A program made the translations under genes and the position numbers. Of a DNA stretch of 64,000 bases, positions 6,932 to 21,737 are shown in pieces (the first letter of the stretch is position 1; every line of letters starts with the position of its first letter). The stretch is taken from contig QQVD01000058.1 of the NCBI GenBank assembly GCA_003388555.1, positions 1 through 64,000 of the forward strand, written 5' to 3'. Under the pieces are notes generated by a model that ran no database searches, was not told the DNA's origin, and saw only the letters and a list, made by a program, of their open reading frames with translations. The DNA is from Acidobacteriota bacterium. Lineage in GTDB: Bacteria; Acidobacteriota; Thermoanaerobaculia; Multivoradales; Multivoraceae.

Positions 6932-9904
6932 ATGAGTACTCTCCCATCTCCCGATCGACCTCCGGATGGACCTCCGGATGGACCTCCGGATGGACCTCCG
7001 GATGGACCTCCGGATGGACCTGCAGATGGTCCTGCAGAGCGACGGCGCGCCGGCAGCTGGGGCAGCTGGGCCTTCGCTGTCGCCCTCGGCATCCTGGGTC
7101 GCCTGATCGGCGGTCTCGAGGCTCCGATCCTCACCGAGGAGACGCCTCCCTTCACCGCCTGGCAGGCGCCGGTGCTGATGGCCTTCGTCCTCTTCGGACC
7201 GCTCCGCGGCCTGGTCGCCGGCCTGCTTGCCCTGAACCACGGTCAGCTCGTGGAGCTCTGGAGCGTTCACCCGGGGATCTCGCTCGGCGGCACGGTCTAC
7301 CTCCTCGAGGGCTGGACTGCGTGGTGGCTGTACCGGCGCACCCGCTCGCTGCCGCTGGCGATCGCCATCTTCTGGCTCGGCTTCGGCTGGATCGCCGACT
7401 GGCTCATCTACGTCGCCTGGGTGGGGCTGGCGCCAGCCTACGTCTTCGTCCTGTTCGTCAAACAGCTCCTCAACGGAGTGCTCTACGGGACCGCCGTCGA
7501 CCTGCTGGCCATGCGACCCGTGCGCGCGTTCGCGGCACGCGTCGACGGACGCCGGGCGGAGACCGTCGACATCGCCCACTATGCCTTCCGTGGCGGCATG
7601 GTGCTGGCGATGCTGCCGGTGGCCCTCGTGGCGCTGATGTACGCCCGGGCGCAGTACGCCGGGGTGCTCGAGGCCGAGGAGCAGGTCAACAGCGAGATCG
7701 GCTACCAGGTCGCCACCCGCACCCACGCCCACATGGAGGTCGAGCGCTACCAGGTCGAGGACCTGGTGCGCCAGCTCGAGGGAGCCGGTACCGCCACGCA
7801 GATCGGCCGCATCCTCGAGCAGCATCTCGCCGATCGTCCCGAGTCGGACATCGTCGCGGTCGTCGACCGGGACGGCGTCATCCTGGCGGCGCACCCGCCG
7901 ACCAGTATCGACGGCGTGCCGCTGGCCGGCGCCGACATCACCGACCGCGCCTACTTCCGCGAGGTCCGCGCCAGCAGCAGGACGACCTACTCCAACCTGA
8001 TCATCGGGCGCTTCCCGATGCGCCGCCAGGCCGTCGCCAACACCGCGGTGGTCATCGCCGAGCCGCGACTCGACGACGAGGGCTCGTTCGCCGGGGCTCT
8101 GATCTGGTCGATCGAGCTCACCTACCTCTTGCACTCGGTGATCCCCCCAGAGATGCACGGTCGCTCGCTCACCCTGATCGACCAGTACCGCAGGGTGATC
8201 GTCTCTTCGGACGGCGAGCGGGCTTCCGGTTCGCTGCTCGAGCTGCGCCCCTCCACCGAACACGACGCCGACGACCCGCGAGGGCTGGAGACCCAGCTCG
8301 GCAACCGTCGCGCCGCCCTGCACTACTACCCGCCCGCAGAGCCGACGCTCGCCTCGAGCCTCGGACTCGATCTGGTCCACGCCGTCTACCAGCCCATCGT
8401 GGCCCCGAACTGGGGAGTCCTCGTCGACCTGCCCGCGAGCCGCCTGCACGAGCAGTTCCTGCCCACGGCGCAGGGCATCGCGGTGCTCTTCGTGCTCCTG
8501 GTGACCAGCGCCTACCTGCTGGTGCGGCGCTTCGCCAGTCGGCTCACCGATCCGGTGCGCTCAGCGGCCACCGTCGCGCAGCAGGTGCACGAGGGCCGGC
8601 TCGATCCGCAGCCGGTGGCGGCGATGGAGCGCTCCGACCTCACCGAGATGCGGGCGCTCGGAGCGGCGTTCGGCGAGCTCGATCGCGCCCTGCAGCGACA
8701 GCGGCGCGAGACCGCCGAGCGCGAGGAGGACCTGCAGAGCCAGCTGCTCGAGGCTCAGAAGATGGAGGCGATCGGCCTGCTCGCGGGCGGCGTCGCGCAC
8801 GACTTCAACAACATGCTGACGCCGATCCTCGGCTATGCGGATCTCGGCGCCGCCAGCGCCCACGGCCAGGAGGAGCGGGAGTACTTCGAGAAGATCCGTG
8901 CCGCGGCGAAGGAAGCCGCCCGGGTCACCGCGCAGCTGCTGGCCTTCGGCCGCCGCCAGGTGCTCGACATGGAGTCGGTGGATCTGGTCGCGGAGATCGA
9001 GCAGTGCCGTCCCCTGCTGCGCCCGCTGCTGCGCGAGAACATCGAGCTGCGGATCCACACCCGGGTCGAGCGCGCCCCGGTGCTGGTCGACACCGCCCAG
9101 TTCCACCGCATCCTCTTCAACCTGTCGCTGAACGCCCAGGACGCGATGCAAGACGGCGGCAGCCTCACGATCGAAGTCGACGTCACGGACAGCGCACCGC
9201 ACTCGATCGGCGACGAGGCTCGCGCGGTGGAACGCTACGTCGTCGTCTCGGTGCGCGACACCGGCTCCGGCATCGAGCCGGCGCTGCAGCGGCAGATCTT
9301 CGAGCCCTTCTTCACCACCAAGGGTCCCGAGAAGGGCACCGGCCTCGGCCTCGCCACCGTCTACGGGATCGTCAAGCAGCACGGCGGCGGCGTCGACGTC
9401 AGCAGCCGACCCGGGCACGGCAGCACCTTCCGCGTCTTCCTGCCCGAGGTCGTCGCGGGCTCGCAGCGCCCAGCGTCCGCCGAGTCGCCTCGGCCCGCGA
9501 CGACGCGCAGCCACCGGATCCTGGTGGCGGAGGACGACACCGCGGTGCGCACAGTCATCGCCTCCTTCCTCACCGGCCACGGCTTCGAGGTCAGCGCCCA
9601 CGCCGATGCCGAATCGGCGCTCGAGGCCCTGCGCCGCCAGCCCTTCCACTTCGATGCCCTGGTCACCGACGTCGTGCTGCCGGCGATGAACGGCCGCGAG
9701 CTCTGGGACGCGGTGCAGCACCTGCGGCCCGGCTTCCCGACCCTCTTCATCTCCGGCTATGGCCACGAGGTGCTGGCCAGCCAGGGCCTGCCCCACGGCG
9801 TGCACCTGCTGAGCAAGCCGTTCACCCAGGCCGACCTGCTGAGGAGCCTCGATCAGGTACTCGAACCCGGGGTTTCCAGGGTCGGCAGGGATCGCGCCTC
9901 GTGA
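6932..9904 (+). CDS. Membrane-bound hybrid sensor histidine kinase with C-terminal receiver
   Basis: 990 residues. The N-terminus is a cytoplasmic Pro-Asp-Gly repeat (residues ~10-34). It is followed by a cluster of hydrophobic segments (~42-190), another membrane helix (GGMVLAMLPVALVALMYA, ~218-236), an extracytoplasmic sensor of double-Cache type (~240-510, with DRDGVILAAHPP and DRAYFREVRAS), a last helix (GIAVLFVLLVTSAYLLV) and a HAMP-like linker. The kinase core has the phospho-accepting histidine in VAHDFNNML (about residue 623), the N box and the ATP lid FFTTKGPEKGTGLGL. A receiver domain ends the protein, with the acceptor Asp at about 913 (VTDVVLPAMNG). No separate response regulator is adjacent. 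A longer GC-rich frame overlapping it at 6904-9981 is an arginine-rich shadow. Confidence 0.93.
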   Translation: MSTLPSPDRPPDGPPDGPPDGPPDGPPDGPADGPAERRRAGSWGSWAFAVALGILGRLIGGLEAPILTEETPPFTAWQAPVLMAFVLFGPLRGLVAGLLALNHGQLVELWSVHPGISLGGTVYLLEGWTAWWLYRRTRSLPLAIAIFWLGFGWIADWLIYVAWVGLAPAYVFVLFVKQLLNGVLYGTAVDLLAMRPVRAFAARVDGRRAETVDIAHYAFRGGMVLAMLPVALVALMYARAQYAGVLEAEEQVNSEIGYQVATRTHAHMEVERYQVEDLVRQLEGAGTATQIGRILEQHLADRPESDIVAVVDRDGVILAAHPPTSIDGVPLAGADITDRAYFREVRASSRTTYSNLIIGRFPMRRQAVANTAVVIAEPRLDDEGSFAGALIWSIELTYLLHSVIPPEMHGRSLTLIDQYRRVIVSSDGERASGSLLELRPSTEHDADDPRGLETQLGNRRAALHYYPPAEPTLASSLGLDLVHAVYQPIVAPNWGVLVDLPASRLHEQFLPTAQGIAVLFVLLVTSAYLLVRRFASRLTDPVRSAATVAQQVHEGRLDPQPVAAMERSDLTEMRALGAAFGELDRALQRQRRETAEREEDLQSQLLEAQKMEAIGLLAGGVAHDFNNMLTPILGYADLGAASAHGQEEREYFEKIRAAAKEAARVTAQLLAFGRRQVLDMESVDLVAEIEQCRPLLRPLLRENIELRIHTRVERAPVLVDTAQFHRILFNLSLNAQDAMQDGGSLTIEVDVTDSAPHSIGDEARAVERYVVVSVRDTGSGIEPALQRQIFEPFFTTKGPEKGTGLGLATVYGIVKQHGGGVDVSSRPGHGSTFRVFLPEVVAGSQRPASAESPRPATTRSHRILVAEDDTAVRTVIASFLTGHGFEVSAHADAESALEALRRQPFHFDALVTDVVLPAMNGRELWDAVQHLRPGFPTLFISGYGHEVLASQGLPHGVHLLSKPFTQADLLRSLDQVLEPGVSRVGRDRAS
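6959..7030 (+). repeat. 12-bp tandem repeat encoding Pro-Pro-Asp-Gly near the kinase N-terminus
   Basis: Five identical copies of cctccggatgga run from 6959 to 7018, followed by one degenerate copy to 7030. The unit length is a multiple of three, so copy-number change would lengthen or shorten the N-terminal tail without shifting the frame. Confidence 0.95.
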
Positions 9905-9944: not shown

Positions 9945-11765
9945 TCACTCCAGCGACTGCAGACGCCAGTACCGCCGGTAGAGGGCGCTGGTCTCGAAGA
10001 GCTCCTCGTGGGCTCCGCTCGCCACCACTCTGCCCTGGTCGAGCACATAGATCCGGTCGGCCCGTCGCGCCGTCGCCAGGCGGTGGGCGATGACCAGCGT
10101 GGTGCGCCCGCTGAGCAGGGTGGCGACGCCTTCCTGCACCCGCGCCTCGGACTCGGGATCGAGCGAGCTCGTCGCCTCGTCGAGCAGCAGGATCTCGGGA
10201 TCCTGGAGGAAGGCCCTGGCGATCGCCAACCGCTGCCGCTGACCGGCCGAGAGGCGCAGACCGCGCTCGCCGATGCGAGTCTCGTAGCCGTGCTCGAGGG
10301 CGACGACGAAGTCGTGGGCGCCCGCCGCCCTGGCCGCGGCCTCCAGCTCCGACTGGTCGGCCTCGGAACGCACGATGCGGAGGTTCTCGGCCACCGTGCC
10401 CGAGAAAAGGAAGATCTCCTGGGGTACCAGGCCGAAGCCGCGACGCAGGTCCTCGAGCCGGTACTCGCCCACCGCCACGCCGTCGATCTCGATCGAGCCA
10501 CCGGACGCCTCGTAGAAGCGCAGCAACAGCGAGAACACGGTGCTCTTGCCGGCACCGCTCGGTCCGACCAGAGCCACCACCTCTCCGGCCGCCACGTGCA
10601 GCGACACGTCGTCGAGCACCAGCCTCTCCGACCCCGGATAGCGGAAGCGGACTCCTTCCAGGCGCAAGGCTCCACGACGCATCGGGCCGACGCCGTCACC
10701 CGCCACGTCGGGCACCGCCGACACCTCGTCGAGCAGCTCGAAGACGCGCGCCGAGGCGCCACGCAGCTCACGGTATCCGGCGTACAGGGAGCCAAGCTGG
10801 CTCACCGAGACGGCGATCGAGAAGGTGTAGAGCAGGAAGCTGGTCAGCTCGCCCGCCGAGAGCCGACCCTCGATCATCAGCTGGCCGCCGTAACCGAGGA
10901 CCAGGGCGAAGGCCGAGAAGCCCGAGAACACCATCAGACCCGAGAAGCCGGCCAGCACCCTGGCGTTGCGCAGCTGCACGGCGAGCAGGTCGCCGAGGTG
11001 CTCGCCGTAGCGGCGCAGCACCTCACCCTCGATCGCCGCCGCCTGCACCGTGCGCACGCCGCTGAGAGACTCCTCGACCCACGCCGAGGCTTCCGCCGAA
11101 GCGTCGCGCGCTCGCCTCGACAGCTTCTCCAGACGAGCCCCGAACCACCGCGCCAGCACCACCACCGGTGGCACCACGATCAGCGCCACCAGAGTCAGAC
11201 GCGTCTGCAGGACCAGCAGGATGACCAGGGTGCCGACGAAACGCAGCGTCGCCTGCAGTCCCTGCGGGATCTGATCGGTGAGCGACCCCTGCACGATGAC
11301 CAGGTCGGAGCCGAGCCTCGAGATCAGCTCGCCCACCCGGCGGCGATCCCAGAACGCCGGCGCCAAGTGGACCAGGTGGCGGTAGAGGCGCTCCCGCAGG
11401 TCGCGCAGCAGACGCGCTCCGGTGGCGATCAGCAGGTAGGTCTCGACGAAGCCGATCACTCCGAGCACCGCGAAGAGGCCGATCAGCGATGCCACCACCC
11501 GGCGGAGCCGGACGCTGCTGGCGCGCTCCAGCGCGGTGTCGACCACCTCGCCGGCGACCATCGGCACCGCCAGCCCCACGGCGCTGCCCACCAGCATCAG
11601 CAGCGTCGCCAGCAGCAGCGGCGTCAGATACGGCCGCGCCAGCGCCAGCAGCCGGCGGAAACTCACCGAGGCGTCGACGGGCTCGCCCGCGGTCTCGCCT
11701 CCGCTGTCGTCGGCCGGCACCCCCGCCTCCCCCTCGGCCTGCTCCTCGGCCTGCTCCGGGCGCAC
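9945..11765 (-). CDS. ABC exporter half-transporter (membrane domain fused to ATPase)
   Basis: 606 residues from a GTG 13 bp after the stop of the acetyltransferase gene, with GAGGA upstream. Six membrane helices (~50-340) precede an ATPase domain with Walker A GPSGAGKST, Q-loop VPQEIFLFSG, signature LSAGQRQRLAIARA, Walker B EILLLDEATSSLD and the H-loop histidine in IAHRLATA. This is the MsbA/ABCB-type exporter layout. There is no C39 peptidase domain. As the last gene of a long co-directional run next to lanthipeptide-like enzymes and a second exporter, it may export a peptide or lipid, or confer self-protection. Substrate is inference only. It converges on the hybrid kinase gene. Confidence 0.93.
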   Translation of the reverse strand: MRPEQAEEQAEGEAGVPADDSGGETAGEPVDASVSFRRLLALARPYLTPLLLATLLMLVGSAVGLAVPMVAGEVVDTALERASSVRLRRVVASLIGLFAVLGVIGFVETYLLIATGARLLRDLRERLYRHLVHLAPAFWDRRRVGELISRLGSDLVIVQGSLTDQIPQGLQATLRFVGTLVILLVLQTRLTLVALIVVPPVVVLARWFGARLEKLSRRARDASAEASAWVEESLSGVRTVQAAAIEGEVLRRYGEHLGDLLAVQLRNARVLAGFSGLMVFSGFSAFALVLGYGGQLMIEGRLSAGELTSFLLYTFSIAVSVSQLGSLYAGYRELRGASARVFELLDEVSAVPDVAGDGVGPMRRGALRLEGVRFRYPGSERLVLDDVSLHVAAGEVVALVGPSGAGKSTVFSLLLRFYEASGGSIEIDGVAVGEYRLEDLRRGFGLVPQEIFLFSGTVAENLRIVRSEADQSELEAAARAAGAHDFVVALEHGYETRIGERGLRLSAGQRQRLAIARAFLQDPEILLLDEATSSLDPESEARVQEGVATLLSGRTTLVIAHRLATARRADRIYVLDQGRVVASGAHEELFETSALYRRYWRLQSLE

Positions 11766-11778
11766 CGAGCCGCCGTCC

Positions 11779-12927
11779 TCAGAAGCGGTCGGCCGGCCAG
11801 AAGTGAAAGCTCGAGCGCGGCAGCAGCAGCTCGAGGAACTCCTCCTCGGCGCGCTCGTCACCGGGTCGCCAGGGCAGCTCGAAACGCGCCGCCAGCGCCT
11901 CCGGCGCCAGGCATCTCAGCATCCACACCGCTTCCGGTCGACCGCGATCGTCGGGCTCGTCGACCCGGCCGACCCCGATGCGCAGCAGCTCGGCCTCGAG
12001 CGCCGGATCGCGCAGCGGCGGGAAGCGCAGCGCCGGCAGACCGAGAGCCCGCTGCGTCGTCGCGATCAGCAGCGCGAGATCCGCGGCGCCGCGTCCCGGA
12101 TCGTGCTCCGGCGCCGACAACTCGTCCCACGACGGGTCGGAGCCGTCGTGTGCCCACTCGGTGGCGCACCAGAGGTCACCGAGCATCGTGCCGCGGAGGA
12201 AGGCGTCGATCTGCACCGAGCCCTCTTCGCGCACCACCAGGAACTCCTCGTGCGGATCCCCGGCCAGCTCCAGGCTGGCCAGCCAGTCGCCACGGTTGCG
12301 CAGCACCGTGCCGGGACGGCGCGACGAGTAGAGGTCGGCGAGCTCCATCACCGCCTCGAGATGGCGCTCGGCGTCGAAGCGCTCGATCTCGATCGGCGCG
12401 CTGCGCGGCGCGGCGGGTGCGTCCTGACGCAGGCCGAGGCGCACGCTGCCGCCGCCCCAGATGCTCCAGCCCAGCTCGCCGTACCAGGCGGTACGAGAGG
12501 CCCACAGCAGCGACAGCTCGTGCCCGCGCCGGCGCATCTCCTCCACCGCCTCCTCGAGCACTCTCGAGGCGAGACCGCGCCTTCGGTGGGTCGGGGCGGT
12601 GAAGACGCTGCCGATGCCGCCGGTAGGCACCGGCTGCCCCCGCACCCGCAGCCAACGGGGGAAGATCTGGGCGCAGGAGACGAGCTCGTGACCGATCTCG
12701 GCGACGACGAAGTTGCGCGCCTCGTAGCGAGGGTCGTGCTCGATGGCACGGCGGAAGAAGTCGGCGCCACTGCGTCCGTCAGGAAACGGCCAGCCGTCGA
12801 GCAGCGCCAGAACGCGCGACTCCTCGCCCGGCTGGAGGGTGCGGATGCGCGCCTCGAAAGCCGCGCTGGTTGCAGCCGAGTCAGCGGCGCCGGCGTCGAG
12901 CCGGGGAGTTGACGAGCGACGATCCAT
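11779..12927 (-). CDS. Eis-like GNAT-family N-acetyltransferase
   Basis: 382 residues from an ATG. The N-terminal half is a GNAT domain: RIRTLQPGEESRVLALL at the start, then the acetyl-CoA loop region GGIGSVFTAPTHRRRGLASRVLEEAVEEM at ~110-140. A second GNAT-like half and a C-terminal region give the length (~380-410) typical of the Eis family. Eis enzymes acetylate amines on peptides, proteins or aminoglycosides. The gene sits 13 bp before one ABC exporter gene and just after another, in the same run as a kinase-LanC gene, so acetylation of an exported peptide is a reasonable hypothesis. It could also act on an unrelated small molecule. Confidence 0.8.
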   Translation of the reverse strand: MDRRSSTPRLDAGAADSAATSAAFEARIRTLQPGEESRVLALLDGWPFPDGRSGADFFRRAIEHDPRYEARNFVVAEIGHELVSCAQIFPRWLRVRGQPVPTGGIGSVFTAPTHRRRGLASRVLEEAVEEMRRRGHELSLLWASRTAWYGELGWSIWGGGSVRLGLRQDAPAAPRSAPIEIERFDAERHLEAVMELADLYSSRRPGTVLRNRGDWLASLELAGDPHEEFLVVREEGSVQIDAFLRGTMLGDLWCATEWAHDGSDPSWDELSAPEHDPGRGAADLALLIATTQRALGLPALRFPPLRDPALEAELLRIGVGRVDEPDDRGRPEAVWMLRCLAPEALAARFELPWRPGDERAEEEFLELLLPRSSFHFWPADRF

Positions 12928-12959: not shown

Positions 12960-14732
12960 TTACTGGTAGCCACGCGCCTGCAGTCGGAAGAGCCGGGCGT
13001 AGCGGCCGTCGAGGGCCAGCAGCTCCTCGTGCGTGCCGCGCTCGACGATGCGGCCGTCGTGCAGCACGACGATCTCGTCGGCCATGCGCACGGTCGAGAA
13101 ACGGTGGCTGATCAGGATCACCATGCGGTCCGCCGACAGCCCCTGCACGTGCTCGAACACCGCCGCCTCCGCCTCCGCGTCCATCGCCGCCGTCGGCTCG
13201 TCGAGCACCAACAGGTCGGCGCCGCCGCGCATGAAGGCACGCGAAAGCGCCACCTTCTGCCACTGTCCGCCGGAGAGCTCCTGGCCGTCCTGGAACCACT
13301 TGCCGAGCTGCGTGTGGTAGCCGCGCGGCAACGATTCCAGGAACGACGCCGCCAGGCCGTCCGCGGCGGCGCGCCGCCAGCGCTGCTCGTCGCCGAGCGC
13401 GCCGACGTCTCCGACTCCGATGTTCTCGCCGGCGAGCAGCTGGTAGCGGGCGTAGTCCTGGAACACCACGGCGATACGGCGGCGCAGCGCGGCGGCATCC
13501 CAGGCGCCGACCTCGGTGCCGTCGAAGAGGACCCGGCCGGTGGTTGCCGGATAGAGGCGGGTCAGCAGCTTGATCAGCGTCGTCTTCCCCGAGCCGTTCT
13601 CTCCCACCAGAGCCAGGCTGGTGCCCGGGCGCAGGTGCAGGTCGATGTCGCTGAGCGCCGGTCTGCTGGCCCCGGGATAGGTGAAGGAGACCGCCTCGAA
13701 GCGCACACCGTCGCCGGGCAACCGGCCCACCGTGGCCTCGCCGCGCTCGCTCTCCACCGGCTCGTCGAGCAGGTCGTAGAGCGTGCTCAGGTAGAGGTTG
13801 TCCTCGTACATGCCACCGATCGCGGTGAGCGCCGCGGCCACCGCAGCCTGTCCCTGCTTGAACAGGAGCAGCAGCATGGTCATCTCGCCGAGGGTCAGCG
13901 AACCGCTGACCGTCACCACGACGATCCAGGCGTAGGTGCCGTAGAACGCCGCGGTCGAGAGCAGGCCGAGCACGAAACCCCAGAGCGAGCGTCGCAGGGT
14001 CAGGTTGCGATCGAGCAGGTAGAGCCCGTCGAAGATCGCCCGGTAGCGCTGCAGCAGCATCGAGCCGAGGCTGAACAGCTGCACCTCCTTGGCGTAGTCC
14101 TCGCGGGCCAGCACCGATTCGAGGTACATCTGCTTGCGGGTCTCGGGCGCCCGCCAGCGCGACAGGCGGAAGGCGTCGCCCGAGAACTTGGCCTCGGCGA
14201 CGAACGCCGGCAGCGCGCCGACCAGCAGGATGAGCACCGCGATCGGTGAGAACGCGAGCAGGATGGCGCCGTAGCTGACCAGGGAGACGCCGTTCTGCAG
14301 CACCCCGAAAGACTTGACCACCAGGCCGAGAGGACGCGTCGACGCGAAGCGTCGCGCCTGGGTCAGTCGGTCGTAGAGCTCGGCGTCCTCGAAGTGCGAC
14401 AACTGCAGCGTCGTCGCCTTCTCGAGGATCATCACGTTGACGCGGTGGCCCAACTTGGCCTGGAACAGCGACTGAGCTGCCTGCAGCCCCCGCTGCGCCG
14501 CCGCCAGCGCCACCAGCACGATGCCCTCGAGGCCGACCCAGCCAAGCGCCGGCGACGCCCGCTCCCAGGCGGCCCGCCAGTCACTCCCAGGGTCGCCCGC
14601 GGTGGCGGGCATCGCCGCCACCACCGCGTCGACGATCAGGCGCCCGAGGTACGCGGCGACCGCTGGCAGCATCCCGGCGATCAGGGTCAGCACCAGGAAG
14701 AAGACGGTGAGGCCCCGGTGGGTGGTCCACAC
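12960..14732 (-). CDS. ABC exporter half-transporter, start unclear
   Basis: 590 residues if the GTG at 14732 is used. Membrane helices (~5-300) precede an ATPase with Walker A GENGSGKTT, Q-loop VVFQDYARY, signature ELSGGQWQKVALSRA, Walker B DLLVLDEPTAAMDA and the H-loop SHRFSTV. The family is that of peptide/lantibiotic-associated and lipid exporters without a peptidase domain. The same frame stays open and protein-like for 76 further codons up to the stop of the upstream kinase-LanC gene (14961). It encodes a Ser/Thr/Gly-rich tail and a conserved-looking segment (PRRFAGVFRYSRHALEL) just before the first helix. No ATG, GTG or TTG occurs there. A CTG at 14930 with GGAGA six bases upstream could be the real start. 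Confidence 0.9.
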   Translation of the reverse strand: MWTTHRGLTVFFLVLTLIAGMLPAVAAYLGRLIVDAVVAAMPATAGDPGSDWRAAWERASPALGWVGLEGIVLVALAAAQRGLQAAQSLFQAKLGHRVNVMILEKATTLQLSHFEDAELYDRLTQARRFASTRPLGLVVKSFGVLQNGVSLVSYGAILLAFSPIAVLILLVGALPAFVAEAKFSGDAFRLSRWRAPETRKQMYLESVLAREDYAKEVQLFSLGSMLLQRYRAIFDGLYLLDRNLTLRRSLWGFVLGLLSTAAFYGTYAWIVVVTVSGSLTLGEMTMLLLLFKQGQAAVAAALTAIGGMYEDNLYLSTLYDLLDEPVESERGEATVGRLPGDGVRFEAVSFTYPGASRPALSDIDLHLRPGTSLALVGENGSGKTTLIKLLTRLYPATTGRVLFDGTEVGAWDAAALRRRIAVVFQDYARYQLLAGENIGVGDVGALGDEQRWRRAAADGLAASFLESLPRGYHTQLGKWFQDGQELSGGQWQKVALSRAFMRGGADLLVLDEPTAAMDAEAEAAVFEHVQGLSADRMVILISHRFSTVRMADEIVVLHDGRIVERGTHEELLALDGRYARLFRLQARGYQ

Positions 14733-14960: not shown

Positions 14961-17408
14961 TCACTCTATCGGCCTCGATCGAGGGGGCCCGGGCAGCAGC
15001 CCCGGCAGCAGCGCGCAGCGCTCGAGCCAGGGCTCCGACGCCAGCTCGGCCACGGTGCACGCCGCGATCCACCCTCGCATCAGGGAGTGGGGAAAGGCCT
15101 TGTCGAAGCGTTGCGGATCGCGCGCCGGATCCGGGAAACGCGCCGCCAGTCCGGCCAGACGCCGGCGCCATCCCGGCGCGACCTCCACTCGCTCCACGAA
15201 GTCGGCCAGCGCCGACAACCGGCCGGCGAGCCCGCAGCAGAGCGTGCCGTCCAGGACCGGCTCGTCGTACACAGGCCACGCGGCCTGATCGGCAAGCTGG
15301 CCCCATCCCGGATCCGCGTCGCGACTGCTGGCGCGTCCCTCGGCCTCGAGCTGCGTCAGCCTCGAGAAGAGGCGCAGCAGCCCGGCCGCGCCGCCGCACC
15401 AACCGCCGCCACCGCCTGCGTGACGCTCCGGGCCCCGGCCTCCGTGCGGCGCTGCGAGCCTCCAGACGGCACCGCGGTGGCGCGGCGTCGCCGCTGCGGC
15501 AAGCCTCTCGAGCCGCGCCGAGAGCAGGTCGTCGTCGCCGTCCAGGTCGACGCGCCCGTGCAGCGCCAGGCGCCACTCGATCAGGGCCAGGGCAACGCCG
15601 GCGGACCCGTGCGCCAGGCCCGGAGGGACCGCCCCCGCGCCGAGCGGCGAAACCAGCACGGAGGCGGCGAGATCGTGGGCCGCGGACCAGGCCATCGTCG
15701 AGCGCGACTCCGCAGCGACCAGCAACGCCCCGGCAGCGCCGGTGAAGAGGTCGACGGACGTCGCGTCGTGACCGTCATCGAGGTCCGAACCGATCCGCTC
15801 GACGCATCGGCGCACTGCGGGCTCGGCGCGCTCCTGCAGGCGCACGTCTCGCTCGAGCCGCGCCTGCCGCTGCGCCACCCACCAGATCCCGAGCTCGCCG
15901 TGGAACAGGCCGCCGGAACCGAGCCGGTCGCGGGTGATACCGAGCTCCGGGGCGCGCAGGGCGCCCTCCTCGTCGGCGTCGAGATCGCGCAGCGACCGGT
16001 CGACCCACAACCGCGCCAGGTCGAGCAGCTCCGCAGACCGGGCGGCCGCCACGACCTGCAGCAGGTGGGCGATGCCGGCGGCGCCCAGGTGCAGCGTCGC
16101 CGTCGGGCGCGGCAGCGGACGGCGCCAGGCCTCGCTGCCCGGACCGAGGGCGCGCCAGAGCCGATCGCGCAACGCCTCGCCGGCGCCGGGCCGCGGCGCG
16201 CGGGTCCGCGTCGGCGGGGTCCCGGCGGCAAGGCTCTCGAGCGAGCGGCGCAGGGTCGAGACGTCGGCGTGACGATCGCCCGGCACGGCGGCCAGTCCAC
16301 GCTCCAGCACCACCTCGAGCTCGGGCCAGGGCTCGGCGCCGACCTCGGCGAAACGGCGTGGGGGGCTGTTCGCCAGTCGACGTAGCGCCTCTGCGCGCCC
16401 CAGAGGCAGGGCGCGCGGCGGTTGTCCGGTGACCAGCTCGTAGAGCAACGCGCACAACGCGTGCTGTTCGGCCGCCGGCGTGCACGGCGGCGGCGCGCGG
16501 TCCGCCAGCAGGGCGGCAGCCAGCTCCGGCTCCCACTGACTCGGCACGCCGCCCCGCTCCTCAAGTCTCGCGAGGTCCGCCGCGGAGCCGCTCCAGCCGA
16601 AGTCGACCAGACGCCACCGATCGGCGCGGTCGAGCAGCAGGTTGCCGGAGTGGAGGTCGCCGTGCACGACGCCTTGCCGGTGCAGCTCCTCCAGAGTCCT
16701 GGCTAGATCGACGCAGAGGCCCAGGAGGTCCGAGACGTCCAAGGCGTCGCGGCGCTCGCCGCCGGTGCAGCGACGCACGACCTCGCGGAAGGGCAGGCCG
16801 GGGATCCAGCTTAGCACCAGGCCGATGCACTCCCGATCTCCGCACCGGTGCAGCAGCCCGGGGGCCCGGCCCCACCCGGCGAGAGCGACCAGCGCCCCTT
16901 CCTCGCGCTCGAGCAGCCGTCGGCTGGCCGGCCGATGCGCCACCTTGCCGAACGCCGGCCGGCCCTGGGGGTCGCGCAGCAGCCAGGCGGAACCGTCGAC
17001 CGTGCGCCGCAGCTCGCCCTCGGCGCGCCAGGGAGACCAGTCGAGCTGCGGCCCGGCGATCGCATCCTCCGATCGCCCATCGCCGGCGCGGCGCAGGATG
17101 CCTGCCCGTCGCAGCTCGTCGACCCAGCGTGACGCGGCATCGAAACGGTCGGCCACCTCGTCACCGTAGACCGCGCAGTAGAGCACCACCGCGTCGACCA
17201 GCGAGGTCGGTTGCGAGAAGAGCTCGGCCAACCTCCAACCGGCCAGGTCCACCGCCAGCGGCGACGAGCGGCTTCCGCGTCGCGAGACGATGCCCTGGCA
17301 CGAGGCGGGGAGCTCGGCCCGCCGCTCCGGTGGCAGCGCCTCTGCCGGCAGCCAGAGCACGTCCTCGGCCAGCTCCAGCCGCACCTCGTCGGGCGCAGTA
17401 TCGCTCAT
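14961..17408 (-). CDS. RRE-like / protein kinase / LanC-like fusion (lanthionine synthetase-type)
   Basis: 815 residues; the ATG overlaps the stop of the preceding gene (ATGA). Residues ~45-107 look like a PqqD/RRE-type winged helix (DLAGWRLAELFSQPTSLVDAV and VDELRRAGIL). Residues ~135-395 are a protein-kinase fold with Lys155, catalytic loop HGDLHSGN (249-256) and DFG (269-271). Residues ~430-790 are a LanC-like alpha-toroid with GLFHGELG, DLFTGAAG, GLAHGSAG, WCGGAAG (Cys671) and LCCGLAG (Cys724-Cys725). In class III-V lanthipeptide systems the kinase phosphorylates Ser/Thr, a lyase eliminates phosphate and LanC adds Cys. No lyase domain is visible here, but the preceding gene may supply one. 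The zinc motif is CCG rather than CHG. Confidence 0.85.
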   Translation of the reverse strand: MSDTAPDEVRLELAEDVLWLPAEALPPERRAELPASCQGIVSRRGSRSSPLAVDLAGWRLAELFSQPTSLVDAVVLYCAVYGDEVADRFDAASRWVDELRRAGILRRAGDGRSEDAIAGPQLDWSPWRAEGELRRTVDGSAWLLRDPQGRPAFGKVAHRPASRRLLEREEGALVALAGWGRAPGLLHRCGDRECIGLVLSWIPGLPFREVVRRCTGGERRDALDVSDLLGLCVDLARTLEELHRQGVVHGDLHSGNLLLDRADRWRLVDFGWSGSAADLARLEERGGVPSQWEPELAAALLADRAPPPCTPAAEQHALCALLYELVTGQPPRALPLGRAEALRRLANSPPRRFAEVGAEPWPELEVVLERGLAAVPGDRHADVSTLRRSLESLAAGTPPTRTRAPRPGAGEALRDRLWRALGPGSEAWRRPLPRPTATLHLGAAGIAHLLQVVAAARSAELLDLARLWVDRSLRDLDADEEGALRAPELGITRDRLGSGGLFHGELGIWWVAQRQARLERDVRLQERAEPAVRRCVERIGSDLDDGHDATSVDLFTGAAGALLVAAESRSTMAWSAAHDLAASVLVSPLGAGAVPPGLAHGSAGVALALIEWRLALHGRVDLDGDDDLLSARLERLAAAATPRHRGAVWRLAAPHGGRGPERHAGGGGGWCGGAAGLLRLFSRLTQLEAEGRASSRDADPGWGQLADQAAWPVYDEPVLDGTLCCGLAGRLSALADFVERVEVAPGWRRRLAGLAARFPDPARDPQRFDKAFPHSLMRGWIAACTVAELASEPWLERCALLPGLLPGPPRSRPIE

Positions 17409-18571
17409 CGGGCCTCGAGCGGAGCCCATACCGCGACGTCCACGCCGCGCCCATGGAGCCGCTGCAGGACCTCGCCGCACCGCTCCTCCACCGACGAGCC
17501 GCTTCGACGGCTGGCGACGATCGCGGCCGCGATCTCCTGCGCCAGCCAAGCGCGCCAGCTGGTCATCGGTTCCCCCTCGATCACCGGATCGATGGCCCAG
17601 GAGAGCAGGCCGTCGGGCGACAGCGCGCCGGAGAACGGGACCCCGTGCACCCGCAGCGACGGTTCGCCCCGCCGCAGGGCCGAGAGGAGGCTCTCAGCCG
17701 CCTGCTCGAGTCGCCGCCGATCTTCGAAGTAGAGCACCAGCTTGTCCGGGCGTAGCACCGCGTCGAGCGTCGCGCCGACCTTGAGCTCGACGAAGTCGAT
17801 CCGCCTCAGCGCCGGCGCCAGGCGCCGCAACGCCTCGCCGAGATCGGCCGCCGCCGGGCTGACGTAGAGCTTCGGCACCGGCCGGGCCCCGGCCGCGGCG
17901 CCAGCCGCGGAGACGCCCCGGGAACGCGTCGACGGCCTCACCACGGTCCAGAAGTCGATCCGCGAGGGGGTGGCTCCGAGCGCCGCGCAGACCTCGTCCA
18001 CCCCGCGCTTCCAGCAGCCTTCGAGGCCGCCACCGTCCGGCTCGCGGCCGGCGCGGTAGAGACGTTCGGCGAGCTCGTGCCGTGCGGCGCGTCCGCCCTC
18101 GGCGACGTCACCGGCGACCGTCAGCTCGAGCAGCCGCAGCGAGCGGCGGGCGAGCTCGTCGTCGGCTGTGGGCGGCGCCCCGAGACCGAAGGCCTCGAGC
18201 GCCGAGGCGCCGGTGTCCCAGGATCCCGCCGCCCCGAGCTCGGGCCGGTGCACCTCGAGCAACCCGTCGAGCACCCACTCCCCCAGCCGCTGGCGCGCCG
18301 CTGCGTCACCGAGCGCCCGGCGCACGAAGGCGGGCAGACGGCCCGGCTCATCCAGCGCGTAGAGGACCAACGCCAGGTCGGTGTCGATGGCCTCCAGGTG
18401 CGACCCGCCCGCCGGGGCGTCGCTCCAGCGGGCGATGCCGAAGAGCTCCCCACTCCGCGGGGCCGGCAGACTTGCGGATGCCTCGAGGCGCTCCCGGGGA
18501 ACCAGCTCCAGCCCGGGGCGACGACGCAGTCTGGCGGCGAGCAGGTCGCGCGCACCTGCCGAACCGGTCAC
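17405..18571 (-). CDS. HopA1-like protein, putative phospho-Ser/Thr lyase of the RiPP pathway
   Basis: 388 residues from a GTG. The C-terminal half resembles the HopA1 effector fold used as the lyase (LxmY-type) in class V lanthipeptide systems: PVPKLYVSPAAADLGEAL (232-248), FVELKVG (260-266), RPDKLVLYFED (274-284), HGVPFSG (309-315) and LLSWAIDP (322-329). The N-terminal half is helical and shows the pattern of HopA1 relatives less clearly. The gene overlaps the kinase-LanC gene by four bases, so the two products are likely made together, and the lyase missing from that fusion could be this protein. The family call rests on motif resemblance by eye and could be wrong; an unrelated conserved hypothetical is the alternative. 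Confidence 0.5.
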   Translation of the reverse strand: MTGSAGARDLLAARLRRRPGLELVPRERLEASASLPAPRSGELFGIARWSDAPAGGSHLEAIDTDLALVLYALDEPGRLPAFVRRALGDAAARQRLGEWVLDGLLEVHRPELGAAGSWDTGASALEAFGLGAPPTADDELARRSLRLLELTVAGDVAEGGRAARHELAERLYRAGREPDGGGLEGCWKRGVDEVCAALGATPSRIDFWTVVRPSTRSRGVSAAGAAAGARPVPKLYVSPAAADLGEALRRLAPALRRIDFVELKVGATLDAVLRPDKLVLYFEDRRRLEQAAESLLSALRRGEPSLRVHGVPFSGALSPDGLLSWAIDPVIEGEPMTSWRAWLAQEIAAAIVASRRSGSSVEERCGEVLQRLHGRGVDVAVWAPLEAR

Positions 18572-18591: not shown

Positions 18592-18918
18592 TCAGCCGAT
18601 GCCCTTCGCCTTCTTGATCTCGGCGATGCGGTCGAGCATCTCGCGCAGGTGACGCTCACACTCGAGGATCTCCTCGCGCTCCTGGGCGTCGGCATCCTGC
18701 AGCTTGCGGAGCTGCGCCTCACGGTGCTCGGCCTGCGCCCGCATCGTCGCCTCGTCCTCGGCAGGCGCCATGCGGCCGCGCAGCCCGCCGGTCTGCACGC
18801 TGCAGTAGAAGCAGTTGGTGGTGCCATCGCAGCGCTCCGCCGGCACCCCGGCCTTGGCTGCAGCGTCCTCGAGCACGTCGGAGAGCAGCTCGATGTAGGT
18901 GAAACGGGTCTCGGCCAT
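18592..18918 (-). CDS. Small Cys/Thr-containing protein with coiled-coil tail, candidate RiPP precursor
   Basis: 108 residues from an ATG with GAGGGGGAGA upstream. The N-terminal ~28 residues are an amphipathic helix-like stretch (FTYIELLSDVLEDAAAKAG). Next comes a short Cys/Thr-rich region with Cys30, Thr33, Thr34, Cys36, Cys39, Ser40 and Thr43, ending in Gly-Gly (44-45). Residues ~50-108 are a charged coiled coil with one more Cys (87). I recognise no family. The position, 20 bp before the HopA1-like gene, and the leader/Gly-Gly/Cys-Thr content allow a lanthipeptide precursor. The long C-terminal coiled coil is unusual for one, so a scaffold or zinc-binding accessory protein is also possible. 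Confidence 0.7.
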   Translation of the reverse strand: MAETRFTYIELLSDVLEDAAAKAGVPAERCDGTTNCFYCSVQTGGLRGRMAPAEDEATMRAQAEHREAQLRKLQDADAQEREEILECERHLREMLDRIAEIKKAKGIG

Positions 18919-18953: not shown

Positions 18954-21737
18954 CTATGGTCCGTTCCCCCTGCGTCGCAGAGCCGTCAGCGCGGGCGTCA
19001 GCGTCGGATCCCGCTCCACGTAGGTCTCGGACCAGTAGCTGCCGAAGTCTAGACCGAGAACCTCCGTCAGGTACTCCGCGGCGCGTCGCGGTTCACCGTT
19101 CATCACCTCTATCCACACCCCGTACTCGAGCACCCGGGCGCGGTAGAGCCACTGGTTGGCGGCGAGCTCGCGCGCCCTGGCCAGGTAACGGCGCGAGCGC
19201 TCGGAGTCGCCGAGGGCGGCGGCGACGAGAGCGGCCATCGAGCGGAGGACGGGATCCAATGGGTCCTGGTCGAACTGGGCCTCGAGGTAGCGCAGCGCCA
19301 CGTCGGCCTCGCCGCGCCAGTCGAAGGCGAGCTCCTGGTGGCGTGCGATCAGGAAGGCGTAGGGCATATCCACCGCGTGCAGCCAGCCGTGCTCGTCTTC
19401 GGGTATCGATCGCGAGGCCCGGCGCTCGAGCAGCCGCTGCGCCGCCAGCGGCCAGTCCTCCCTCACCACCGCCAGCTGCAGCGCCAGCCGCGTGTGCACC
19501 GTGAATCCCTGGCTCTCGAGCTCTCGGTGCAGCGCCTCGACCTCCTCCACCGGCGCTCCACCGGCCAGCAGCGCCGGCTGCAACACTTCGAGGGCGAAGG
19601 TGCGACCAGGAACGAGCGACAGCAGCAGTCGCCCCATCTGCTCCGCCTCGGCGTAGTCGCGCGAGGTCAACCGGTCCCAAGCGAGCTGATCGCGCACCTG
19701 GGGATCGGTGCCGTGCAGACTCCAGGCGCGGCGCAGAGTCTCGGTGGCTGCTTCGCCGTCGCCGGCGCTGCGCTGCATCAGCGCGTACCCGAGCAGCAGG
19801 TCGGAGCGGCCGGGGTGGCTGTCGAGGAGCTGCTCGAAGATCTGCAGCGCCCGCTGCGGCTGCTGATGGACCTGGCCGACGTAGAGCGCCTCGGCGACCC
19901 GCCTCGAGGAGTCGTTGGGGGCGAGCTGGCGCGCGTGGTCGATCGCCCGCTCGACGCGATCGATGGTGTCGCCGATCATCGGCGCCGGCAGGCAGCGCCC
20001 CGCATTGCGGTGGTTGTCGATCTCGGCCACCGCGAGCTCGCTCCACGCCAGCCCGAACTGCGGATCGAGCTCGACCGCCCGCTGCAGCGCCTCGTTGGCC
20101 TCGTCGAGCCGTCCGACGCGGCGTAGGTTGAGGCTGCGCAGGTAGGCCGCTTCCGCCTCGGCCACCGAAGTCATCGGCGTCGGCTCGATGACGTCGCCGG
20201 GCCGCAGCAGGTGCAGCTGGCGGGCCACGTCGCCTGCGATCTCGGCGTTGATGCGGGCCCTGTTCTCAGGCCTCGACCGGTAGCTCTGGCGCCAGTCGAG
20301 ACCGAGCTCCTCGGTGCCGACCAGACGCATGGTGAGCTCTCCGGTCAGCTCGCGCTCGGACCAGTCGATGACGCCGTAGAGCGCCGCGTCGGCACCGAGC
20401 TGGGCGAGCAGCTCGGAGCGACGGGTCTCGTCGCCGAGCTCGATGCCGGCCGACGACGACACGTTCGCGAGCTCGCCCTCGTCGACCAGATGCAGTCCCG
20501 GCACTTCGAGCAGGGTGTGGCGCAGGCTCTCCTCGAGCCCACGCACCGTGTGCTCGTACTCGAGGCTTCCGTCGATCTGCATCGGCACCGTGACCAGCCG
20601 CACGAAGTCGCGCACCTCGTCGACCGGCGGCGGCCGATCGAGCAGCGGCCGCGCCGCCCACAGTCCGGCGCCGGCGGCCACCGCAGCCATCGCAACGCCG
20701 GCAAGCAGCAGGTTGCGCGCCCCTCGCCGGGCCGGCAGCAGCCCGCGCACCACCAGCGGGGCGGTCAACGAGCGGCTGCTCAGATGCGCCGCGAGCACCT
20801 CGAGCGCTCGCGCCACCTCGCCGGCGTCGGCGTACCGCGCCGCCGGTTCCTTCTCCAGGCAGCGGGCGACGATCGACTCCAGCATGGCCGGTGCGCGAGG
20901 CCGCAGCTGACGTAACCCGGGCGCGTCGTCGCGCATGATGCGCGCCATCAGCTCGGCCTGCGAGATCGCCTCGAAGGGCCTGCGGCCGGTGGACAGCTCG
21001 AACAGCAGGGCGCCGAGAGCGAAGACGTCCGAGCGCGGCGTCGCCTCCTCGCCGCGCAGCTGCTCCGGCGCCATGTAGGGCACCGTCCCGACCATGCCGC
21101 CGGCCTGGGTGACCATCGGCACGGTCTCGTCGACGGTCGAAGGCGGCTTGGAGAGCTCGTGCTCGTGGCTCTCCTTGGCGACGCCGAAGTCGAGCACCTT
21201 GACGTTGCCGGTCTCCGACTCGACCATCACGTTCGACGGCTTGAGGTCGCGGTGCGTGATCCGGCGCTCGTGCGCCGCCGCCAGGGCGCGCGCGATCGGC
21301 AGCGCGTAGCGGAGCACCTCGACGACTTCGAGCCCGGCCTCCGGCAGGCGCTCCGCCAAGGTCTCGCCGTCGATCAGCTCGAGGCTGAGGAAGCGCAGCG
21401 CCTCGAACTCCTCGACCGCGAAGAGGGTGACGATGTTCGGGTGCTTGAGGCCGGCGAGGATCTCGGCCTCGCGCTGGAAGCGCTTGAGCCGCCGAGGTTG
21501 CCGGCTCATCTCCTCGGGCAGCACCTTGATGGCGATCTCGCGCCGCAGCCGCAGGTCGGTGGCGCGGTAGACCTCGCCCATGCCGCCGGCGCCGAGCAGC
21601 TCGCCGAAGCGGTAGTGCAGCAGCGTGCGACCGCTCAGCGAGCCTCTGTCGCCCCGGCGCCGCGCGCTGCGCTGCCCGTCGCGGGTCGGGGCGTGCTCGG
21701 CAGCCCCGGTCGCGGCCTCCTCGTCTTCGGCATTCAC
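18954..21737 (-). CDS. Membrane Ser/Thr protein kinase with C-terminal TPR-like region
   Basis: 927 residues from a GTG. The cytoplasmic PknB-type kinase domain (~40-320) has GAGGMGEVY, the lysine in EIAIKVL, catalytic loop HRDLKPSN, DFG in VLDFGVAKE and APEQ. A membrane helix follows (NLLLAGVAMAAVAAGAGLWAA, ~338-358). The external part holds a TolB/adenylyl-cyclase-associated type segment (~375-500) that builds a small sensor-like domain, and then helical repeats of TPR type (~510-900). This receptor-kinase layout is abundant in Acidobacteriota and myxobacteria. It lies 35 bp upstream of the small Cys protein and 32 bp downstream of mltA, in the same run of genes, so it may control or be co-expressed with the peptide pathway. 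Confidence 0.93.
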   Translation of the reverse strand: MNAEDEEAATGAAEHAPTRDGQRSARRRGDRGSLSGRTLLHYRFGELLGAGGMGEVYRATDLRLRREIAIKVLPEEMSRQPRRLKRFQREAEILAGLKHPNIVTLFAVEEFEALRFLSLELIDGETLAERLPEAGLEVVEVLRYALPIARALAAAHERRITHRDLKPSNVMVESETGNVKVLDFGVAKESHEHELSKPPSTVDETVPMVTQAGGMVGTVPYMAPEQLRGEEATPRSDVFALGALLFELSTGRRPFEAISQAELMARIMRDDAPGLRQLRPRAPAMLESIVARCLEKEPAARYADAGEVARALEVLAAHLSSRSLTAPLVVRGLLPARRGARNLLLAGVAMAAVAAGAGLWAARPLLDRPPPVDEVRDFVRLVTVPMQIDGSLEYEHTVRGLEESLRHTLLEVPGLHLVDEGELANVSSSAGIELGDETRRSELLAQLGADAALYGVIDWSERELTGELTMRLVGTEELGLDWRQSYRSRPENRARINAEIAGDVARQLHLLRPGDVIEPTPMTSVAEAEAAYLRSLNLRRVGRLDEANEALQRAVELDPQFGLAWSELAVAEIDNHRNAGRCLPAPMIGDTIDRVERAIDHARQLAPNDSSRRVAEALYVGQVHQQPQRALQIFEQLLDSHPGRSDLLLGYALMQRSAGDGEAATETLRRAWSLHGTDPQVRDQLAWDRLTSRDYAEAEQMGRLLLSLVPGRTFALEVLQPALLAGGAPVEEVEALHRELESQGFTVHTRLALQLAVVREDWPLAAQRLLERRASRSIPEDEHGWLHAVDMPYAFLIARHQELAFDWRGEADVALRYLEAQFDQDPLDPVLRSMAALVAAALGDSERSRRYLARARELAANQWLYRARVLEYGVWIEVMNGEPRRAAEYLTEVLGLDFGSYWSETYVERDPTLTPALTALRRRGNGP

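Follow-up and report, generated by a model that had tools for sequence, protein, structure and literature searches.

Reviews list lanthipeptide classes I to VI, class VI being that of LanKCb of streptococci (PMC12328550, PMC10676316). In CaoY, the lyase of a class V system, the catalytic residues are K219-R229-Y236 (PMC9486802), a K219A variant halting at the phosphopeptide, and among the LanM enzymes a CCG zinc site has been associated with promiscuous members such as ProcM (PMC10027976). Here we describe a locus in 64,000 nucleotides of an Acidobacteriota bacterium (assembly GCA_003388555.1, contig QQVD01000058.1, positions 1 to 64,000; the whole stretch is called the window below), in which a small gene, P0001, is followed by genes for a LanY-like lyase and a kinase-LanC fusion. 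On sequence grounds, we think it quite likely that P0001 encodes the precursor of a lanthipeptide-like ribosomally synthesized and post-translationally modified peptide (RiPP) made by a two-enzyme synthetase. This reading is based on the order of the genes, their architecture and pattern of conservation, the fold predicted for the enzymes and their active-site residues. The features concerned are the following.

18592..18918, minus strand: P0001, candidate precursor gene, 108 aa (open reading frame (ORF) with ribosome-binding site, cassette position, rank against the family profile)
18871..18906, minus strand: P0001 putative leader segment (residues 5-16), RFTYIELLSDVL, aligned by MAFFT in register with the family motif F-x-V-K-D-L-M-I-x-V-L; weak score of 6.6 with a position-specific scoring matrix (PSSM)
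18784..18831, minus strand: P0001 putative core, residues 30-45, CDGTTNCFYCSVQTGG, placed where family members have their hypervariable core rich in Cys/Thr
18595..18780, minus strand: P0001 putative follower, residues 47-108, coiled-coil-like (hhalign of residues 32-102 to the family profile; follower PSSM weak)
17405..18571, minus strand: P0002, predicted LanY/HopA1-type phospho-Ser/Thr lyase with an N-terminal RRE-like domain, 388 aa (AlphaFold, Foldseek, invariant residues)
14961..17408, minus strand: kinase-LanC fusion, 815 aa, with a predicted N-terminal RRE-like domain and a CCG-type zinc site (Pfam Pkinase and LANC_like; Foldseek CuvL)

P0001 reads from an ATG at 18918 to a TGA at 18592 on the minus strand, and the ATG is preceded by a purine-rich ribosome-binding site (gaggggga). 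An earlier note on this DNA had described a Cys/Thr patch in the product, and its positions are exact by residue count: Cys30, Thr33, Thr34, Cys36, Cys39, Ser40, Thr43 and Gly44-Gly45; a fourth cysteine, Cys87, lies within the coiled-coil portion. The same note had seen a C-terminal coiled coil of ~60 residues, with which both the composition of that part (Glu/Arg/Ala/Leu-rich with one Pro, helical/coiled-coil-like) and its weak matches to the SlyX/EnvC coiled coils agree. It had also called this the only small gene near the enzymes, and indeed no small ORF other than P0001 separates the PknB-TPR kinase gene, upstream, from that of the lyase. P0001 sits 20 nt upstream of the lyase gene on the same strand, and the lyase gene overlaps the kinase-LanC gene (the former ends at 17405, the latter starts at 17408).

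The lyase was used as bait for locus searches, and phyla were read from record titles. Within the order, 11 of 72 genomes had lyase loci, and within the class 13 of 149 did; 53 loci (given L numbers below) were found in a genome contig collection. They are distributed over Acidobacteriota, Actinomycetota, Pseudomonadota, Gemmatimonadota, Nitrospirota, Bacteroidota, Verrucomicrobiota, Chloroflexota, Armatimonadota and Cyanobacteria. A kinase-LanC gene lies downstream of the lyase gene in 52 of the 53 loci (with one ORF between them in L045), and the one exception runs into a contig end. In ~45 of the 53 a small gene of one shared layout stands beside both enzymes, in the window's order of small gene, lyase and kinase-LanC. 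An ORF scoring with the leader model was found at the lyase in 44 loci and downstream in one more (L043), three others were recognized by eye (L042, L065, L082), and two of the loci left without a precursor are cut by contig ends.

The shared layout consists of a leader with the motif F-x-V-K-D-L-M-I-x-V, a hypervariable core rich in Cys, Thr, Ser and Gly (8-170 residues with 2-33 Cys), and, at the C-terminus, a helix or coiled coil in which LxxLKxQLxxALxxV recurs; a second helix (PQTxEEVDxLExxLxxALEEL) often follows. Leader scores above 15 bits were obtained for 39 of 322 ORFs near the lyase versus 10 of 6213 elsewhere, an enrichment that is partly circular because 38 of these sequences had served to train the leader model; outside the training set the model matched nine loci (L052, L058, L059, L067, L070, L071, L073, L074 and L076). 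In leave-one-out scoring, family members obtained 9.8-34.2. In most related pairs the core is hypervariable between conserved flanks, with leader/core/follower identities of 86/42/81% for the two L045 genes, 71/25/54% for L038 versus L086, and 62/38/49% for L057 versus L039. Other pairs are less clear (L038/L040, 76/81/90%; L059/L066, 100/89/91%), and L033/L036 show the reverse pattern, with a core identity of 83% and a follower identity of 51%. Cys makes up 16.5% of the cores, a contrast with the flanks that is partly definitional, as the outermost Cys residues set the core limits; no such effect of definition applies to Ser/Thr, at 20% in cores versus 8-9% in flanks. Repeated cores occur in L081:8361-8795, L084:8854-9549, L073:9063-9854, the second L036 precursor (9240-9503) and L086, and in L081 acidic linkers lie between the repeats, an arrangement like that of multi-core RiPP precursors. 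In a gene on a Paenibacillus peoriae plasmid (L102:7011-7763), three units of leader, Cys core and helix are repeated in tandem with a 213-nt period, indicating that the three parts belong together as one unit. No model covering the precursors was found in NCBIfam 2026 or Pfam, and therefore genome mining by precursor models would miss these clusters. A Nif11/NHLP leader was not matched in the family, either by model search or by sequence. The earlier note had suggested a leader-core-follower precursor and, as a check, a search for homologues next to kinase-LanC genes and for a patch that varies between conserved flanks; for the family, the recurring layout beside the same two enzymes and the identities given above bear this out. 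The N-terminal recognition helix that it had proposed corresponds in the family to a short FxVKDLxIxV motif.

The window lyase itself matches no Pfam or NCBIfam family; among its homologues HopA1 is the commonest and best Pfam family (5 of 37, best 1.5e-4), and RamC_N occurs in two. Searching PDB sequences with the lyase profile returned noise only, and the identification came from the Foldseek fold search with an AlphaFold model (mean pLDDT 87, built with 36 homologues), in which LxmY of the class V lexapeptide dehydratase ranked first (9dk1, 1.8e-7), with further matches to HopA1, the lyase part of CuvL, SpvC and OspF. The residues K234, K264, R274 and Y281 are invariant across 37 lyase sequences, and the spacing of K264-R274-Y281 (10, 7) is identical to that of the CaoY triad, an equivalence by motif and spacing, not by superposition. 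For the kinase-LanC model (pLDDT 82), the class IV synthetase CuvL was the first Foldseek match (2.9e-19), and class III ThurKC was matched as well. Its best NCBIfam matches are LanL/LanKC, with LanL at 112 bits versus a cutoff of 650. Kinase and LanC motifs are intact, including the kinase loop HGDLHSGN and the zinc motif WC...CCG, and the CCG form is present in 43 of 43 complete homologues. In the models, the N-terminus of each enzyme is rich in beta strands and then continues into three helices, the topology of PqqD/RRE domains, and hhalign (95.7%) shows the two N-terminal domains to be homologues. This topology suggests that both are RRE-like; no RRE structure is among the listed fold matches.

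P0001 was then compared with a family profile built without it. The ranking by a full-length hidden Markov model (HMM) was confounded by low-complexity out-of-frame ORFs, and therefore hhalign with shuffles and decoys, together with motif PSSMs, was used. The N-terminus of P0001, RFTYIELLSDVL, is in register with RFAVKDLMITVL of L074 (MAFFT), and residues 84-98, ILECERHLREMLDRI, are similar to the follower motif. By hhalign P0001 matches the profile at 88% with a score of 38.8; among 301 window ORFs it ranks first, the runner-up scoring 30.3, none of 200 shuffles reaches its score, and no window ORF beats it on the combined leader/follower score. Several results weigh on the other side. The leader PSSM score of 6.6 is below that of all members and ranks 7th of 357 window ORFs; the combined leader/follower score, top in the window, is yet reached by 26 of 2159 distant ORFs (~1%; among them a few genuine precursors); and the best of 329 coiled-coil-like decoys scores 36.0, a thin margin to 38.8. 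Since an unrelated decoy comes this close, much of the profile score of P0001 is generic coiled coil. In addition, the follower PSSM did not pick out the best-looking P0001 helix, and an HMM of 21 precursors misses P0001 even at E<=10 but detects at 1e-32 the precursor of a second complete cassette in the same genome (contig C65, L085:1776-5969; precursor, LanY-like lyase and kinase-LanC). No homologue of P0001 was found by sequence in the genome contig collection or in 60 related genomes, and searches around the cassettes revealed no conserved transporter or dedicated protease.

The missing homologues, the weak SlyX/EnvC matches and the combination of three Cys with a coiled coil would also fit a small protein with no relation to the enzymes, either zinc-binding, with C-x5-C-x2-C as a metal site, or a coiled-coil regulator. 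There are, however, just three clustered Cys, ~45 cassettes have hypervariable-core precursors at the homologous position, and P0001 tops the window ORFs against the precursor profile, so that we regard this explanation as improbable. Alternatively, the weak leader and follower of P0001 might mean that it has diverged or is decaying and that its enzymes now serve another substrate, such as the precursor of the C65 cassette, which is intact and has a canonical leader. But the C65 cassette has its own enzymes, and those beside P0001 have diverged equally (lyase 25-36% identity, kinase-LanC 23-33%) while keeping their catalytic residues, which fits co-divergence; a changed substrate thus appears about as improbable as a metal-binding protein. 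The neighbouring enzymes, being catalytically intact, should have a substrate, and P0001 is the sole candidate beside them and therefore the likely one. In our judgment P0001 is quite likely a divergent family member, assigned largely on synteny and gene order. The proposal of the earlier note that it is a precursor is supported by the family layout and the gene order, with the qualification that its leader is weak and that the family HMM does not detect it.

For the reactions, the docking roles and the removal of leader and follower, we infer a course in which the N-terminal segment of P0001 would act as the leader, residues ~30-45 as the core and the C-terminal coiled coil as the follower. 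The leader, and perhaps the follower too, would dock on the RRE-like domains of both enzymes. The kinase domain of the fusion would phosphorylate Thr33, Thr34, Ser40 and Thr43, the separate LanY/HopA1-type lyase would eliminate phosphate to give dehydroamino acids, and the LanC domain, with its Cys-Cys-Cys zinc site, would add Cys30, Cys36 and Cys39 to form (methyl)lanthionine rings. The follower may help to hold the substrate in register or to dimerise substrate or enzymes, these being the simplest ideas, and leader and follower would later be removed. It is also possible, if rather unlikely, that the product retains both and is a thioether-cross-linked protein in the cell or at its surface, not a small excreted peptide. 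This is a variant of the precursor reading as to product, and the probabilities of the two overlap. The lack of a conserved protease or transporter and cores that reach ~170 residues and 33 Cys point in this direction, but proteases and exporters may be encoded elsewhere, and cores of 8-30 residues resemble classical RiPP cores.

The minus-strand gene order is PknB-TPR kinase, P0001, the 388-aa lyase, kinase-LanC, ABC ATPase, GNAT and a second ABC transporter; the outer genes are as follows.

18954..21737, minus strand: TPR-repeat Ser/Thr kinase of the PknB type, next to P0001 on its upstream side (Pfam Pkinase and TPR)
12960..14732, minus strand: ABC transporter ATPase that may serve export in the operon (Pfam ABC_tran; not conserved in other cassettes)
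11779..12900, minus strand: GNAT acetyltransferase, possibly tailoring or unrelated (Pfam Acetyltransf_9; not conserved elsewhere)
9945..11861, minus strand: ABC transporter with a membrane domain and without a C39 peptidase domain (Pfam ABC_membrane and ABC_tran; not conserved)

The two ABC transporters downstream and the Gly-Gly at 44-45 would be in keeping with an ordinary leader-GG-core peptide, cut at Gly44-Gly45, with the C-terminal helix as the product. However, Gly-Gly is not conserved across the precursor family, Ser/Thr and Cys precede it in P0001, the transporters are without a C39 peptidase domain, and it is in the C-terminal helix that the precursors are conserved and poor in Cys. 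We consider such a product very unlikely indeed.

Long ORFs upstream of the lyase, like the PknB-TPR kinase of the window, recur in ~14 loci, mostly of Acidobacteriota, and may be regulators. Seven loci (L067, L068, L072, L075, L077, L078 and L085) carry a second precursor type with the conserved sequence P[DN]P[ND]CGG[TS]SxETIPxxxTPVVH, usually with a single Cys, and in most of them the lyase ORF is short and seems to have lost or never had the N-terminal domain; from the conservation of the core, a single product shared between phyla seems likely. On a Cupriavidus oxalaticus plasmid (L103:2250-5942), a class I lantibiotic dehydratase (LanB) gene lies directly before a leader-core-follower precursor and a LanY-like lyase.

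Taken across genomes, the cassettes likely represent a widespread undescribed lanthipeptide class, in which a HopA1/LanY lyase and a CCG kinase-cyclase, both RRE-like at the N-terminus, act on hypervariable-core precursors with a leader and a coiled-coil follower. In the open-access literature on class VI/VII, follower and HopA1 lanthipeptides, to which the search was confined, no description of the present system was found, and the arrangement has apparently not been described previously. If the assignment is correct, the lanthipeptide synthetases would include a further type beyond classes I-VI, present in uncultured soil phyla and equipped with a promiscuity-linked CCG cyclase, and its precursors would have a long C-terminal follower that is not known for lanthipeptides. 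Separable leader, core and follower, together with naturally repeated cores, would be attractive for engineering and would open the reason for the coiled coil to direct testing.

Cores flanked or followed by removable conserved segments are known from other RiPPs, for example cyanobactins (leader-core-follower) and bottromycins (follower only); none of these is known to use a kinase/lyase/LanC set of the lanthipeptide kind or to have a coiled-coil follower of such length. Among lanthipeptides, the ProcM-type LanMs with their prochlorosin precursors share the CCG zinc site and hypervariable cores after a fixed leader (PMC10027976), whereas their dehydratase is different, and the present precursors have a follower and a leader that is not of the Nif11/NHLP kind. 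The class V systems (LanK and LanY; CaoKY, LxmKY) share the stand-alone HopA1-type lyase, as reflected in the best fold match to LxmY and in the Lys/Arg/Tyr spacing of CaoY; judged by position, Arg187 of CaoY would correspond to a Lys (K234) in the present lyase. In class V, however, a separate APH-like LanK occurs with LanX and no LanC, whereas the present kinase is protein-kinase-like and fused to a canonical zinc LanC, its precursors have a follower, and its distribution extends well beyond actinobacteria. The class IV LanL (CuvL) and class III LanKC enzymes, in turn, share the kinase-cyclase order and fold, CuvL being the top fold match. In LanL, though, lyase, kinase and zinc LanC are in one chain, while here the HopA1-type lyase has a separate gene, an RRE-like N-terminal domain replaces the lyase domain of classes IV and III, and CCG replaces the usual Cys-Cys-His zinc ligands. 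The enzyme set falls between class V and class IV and lacks a defining feature of each.
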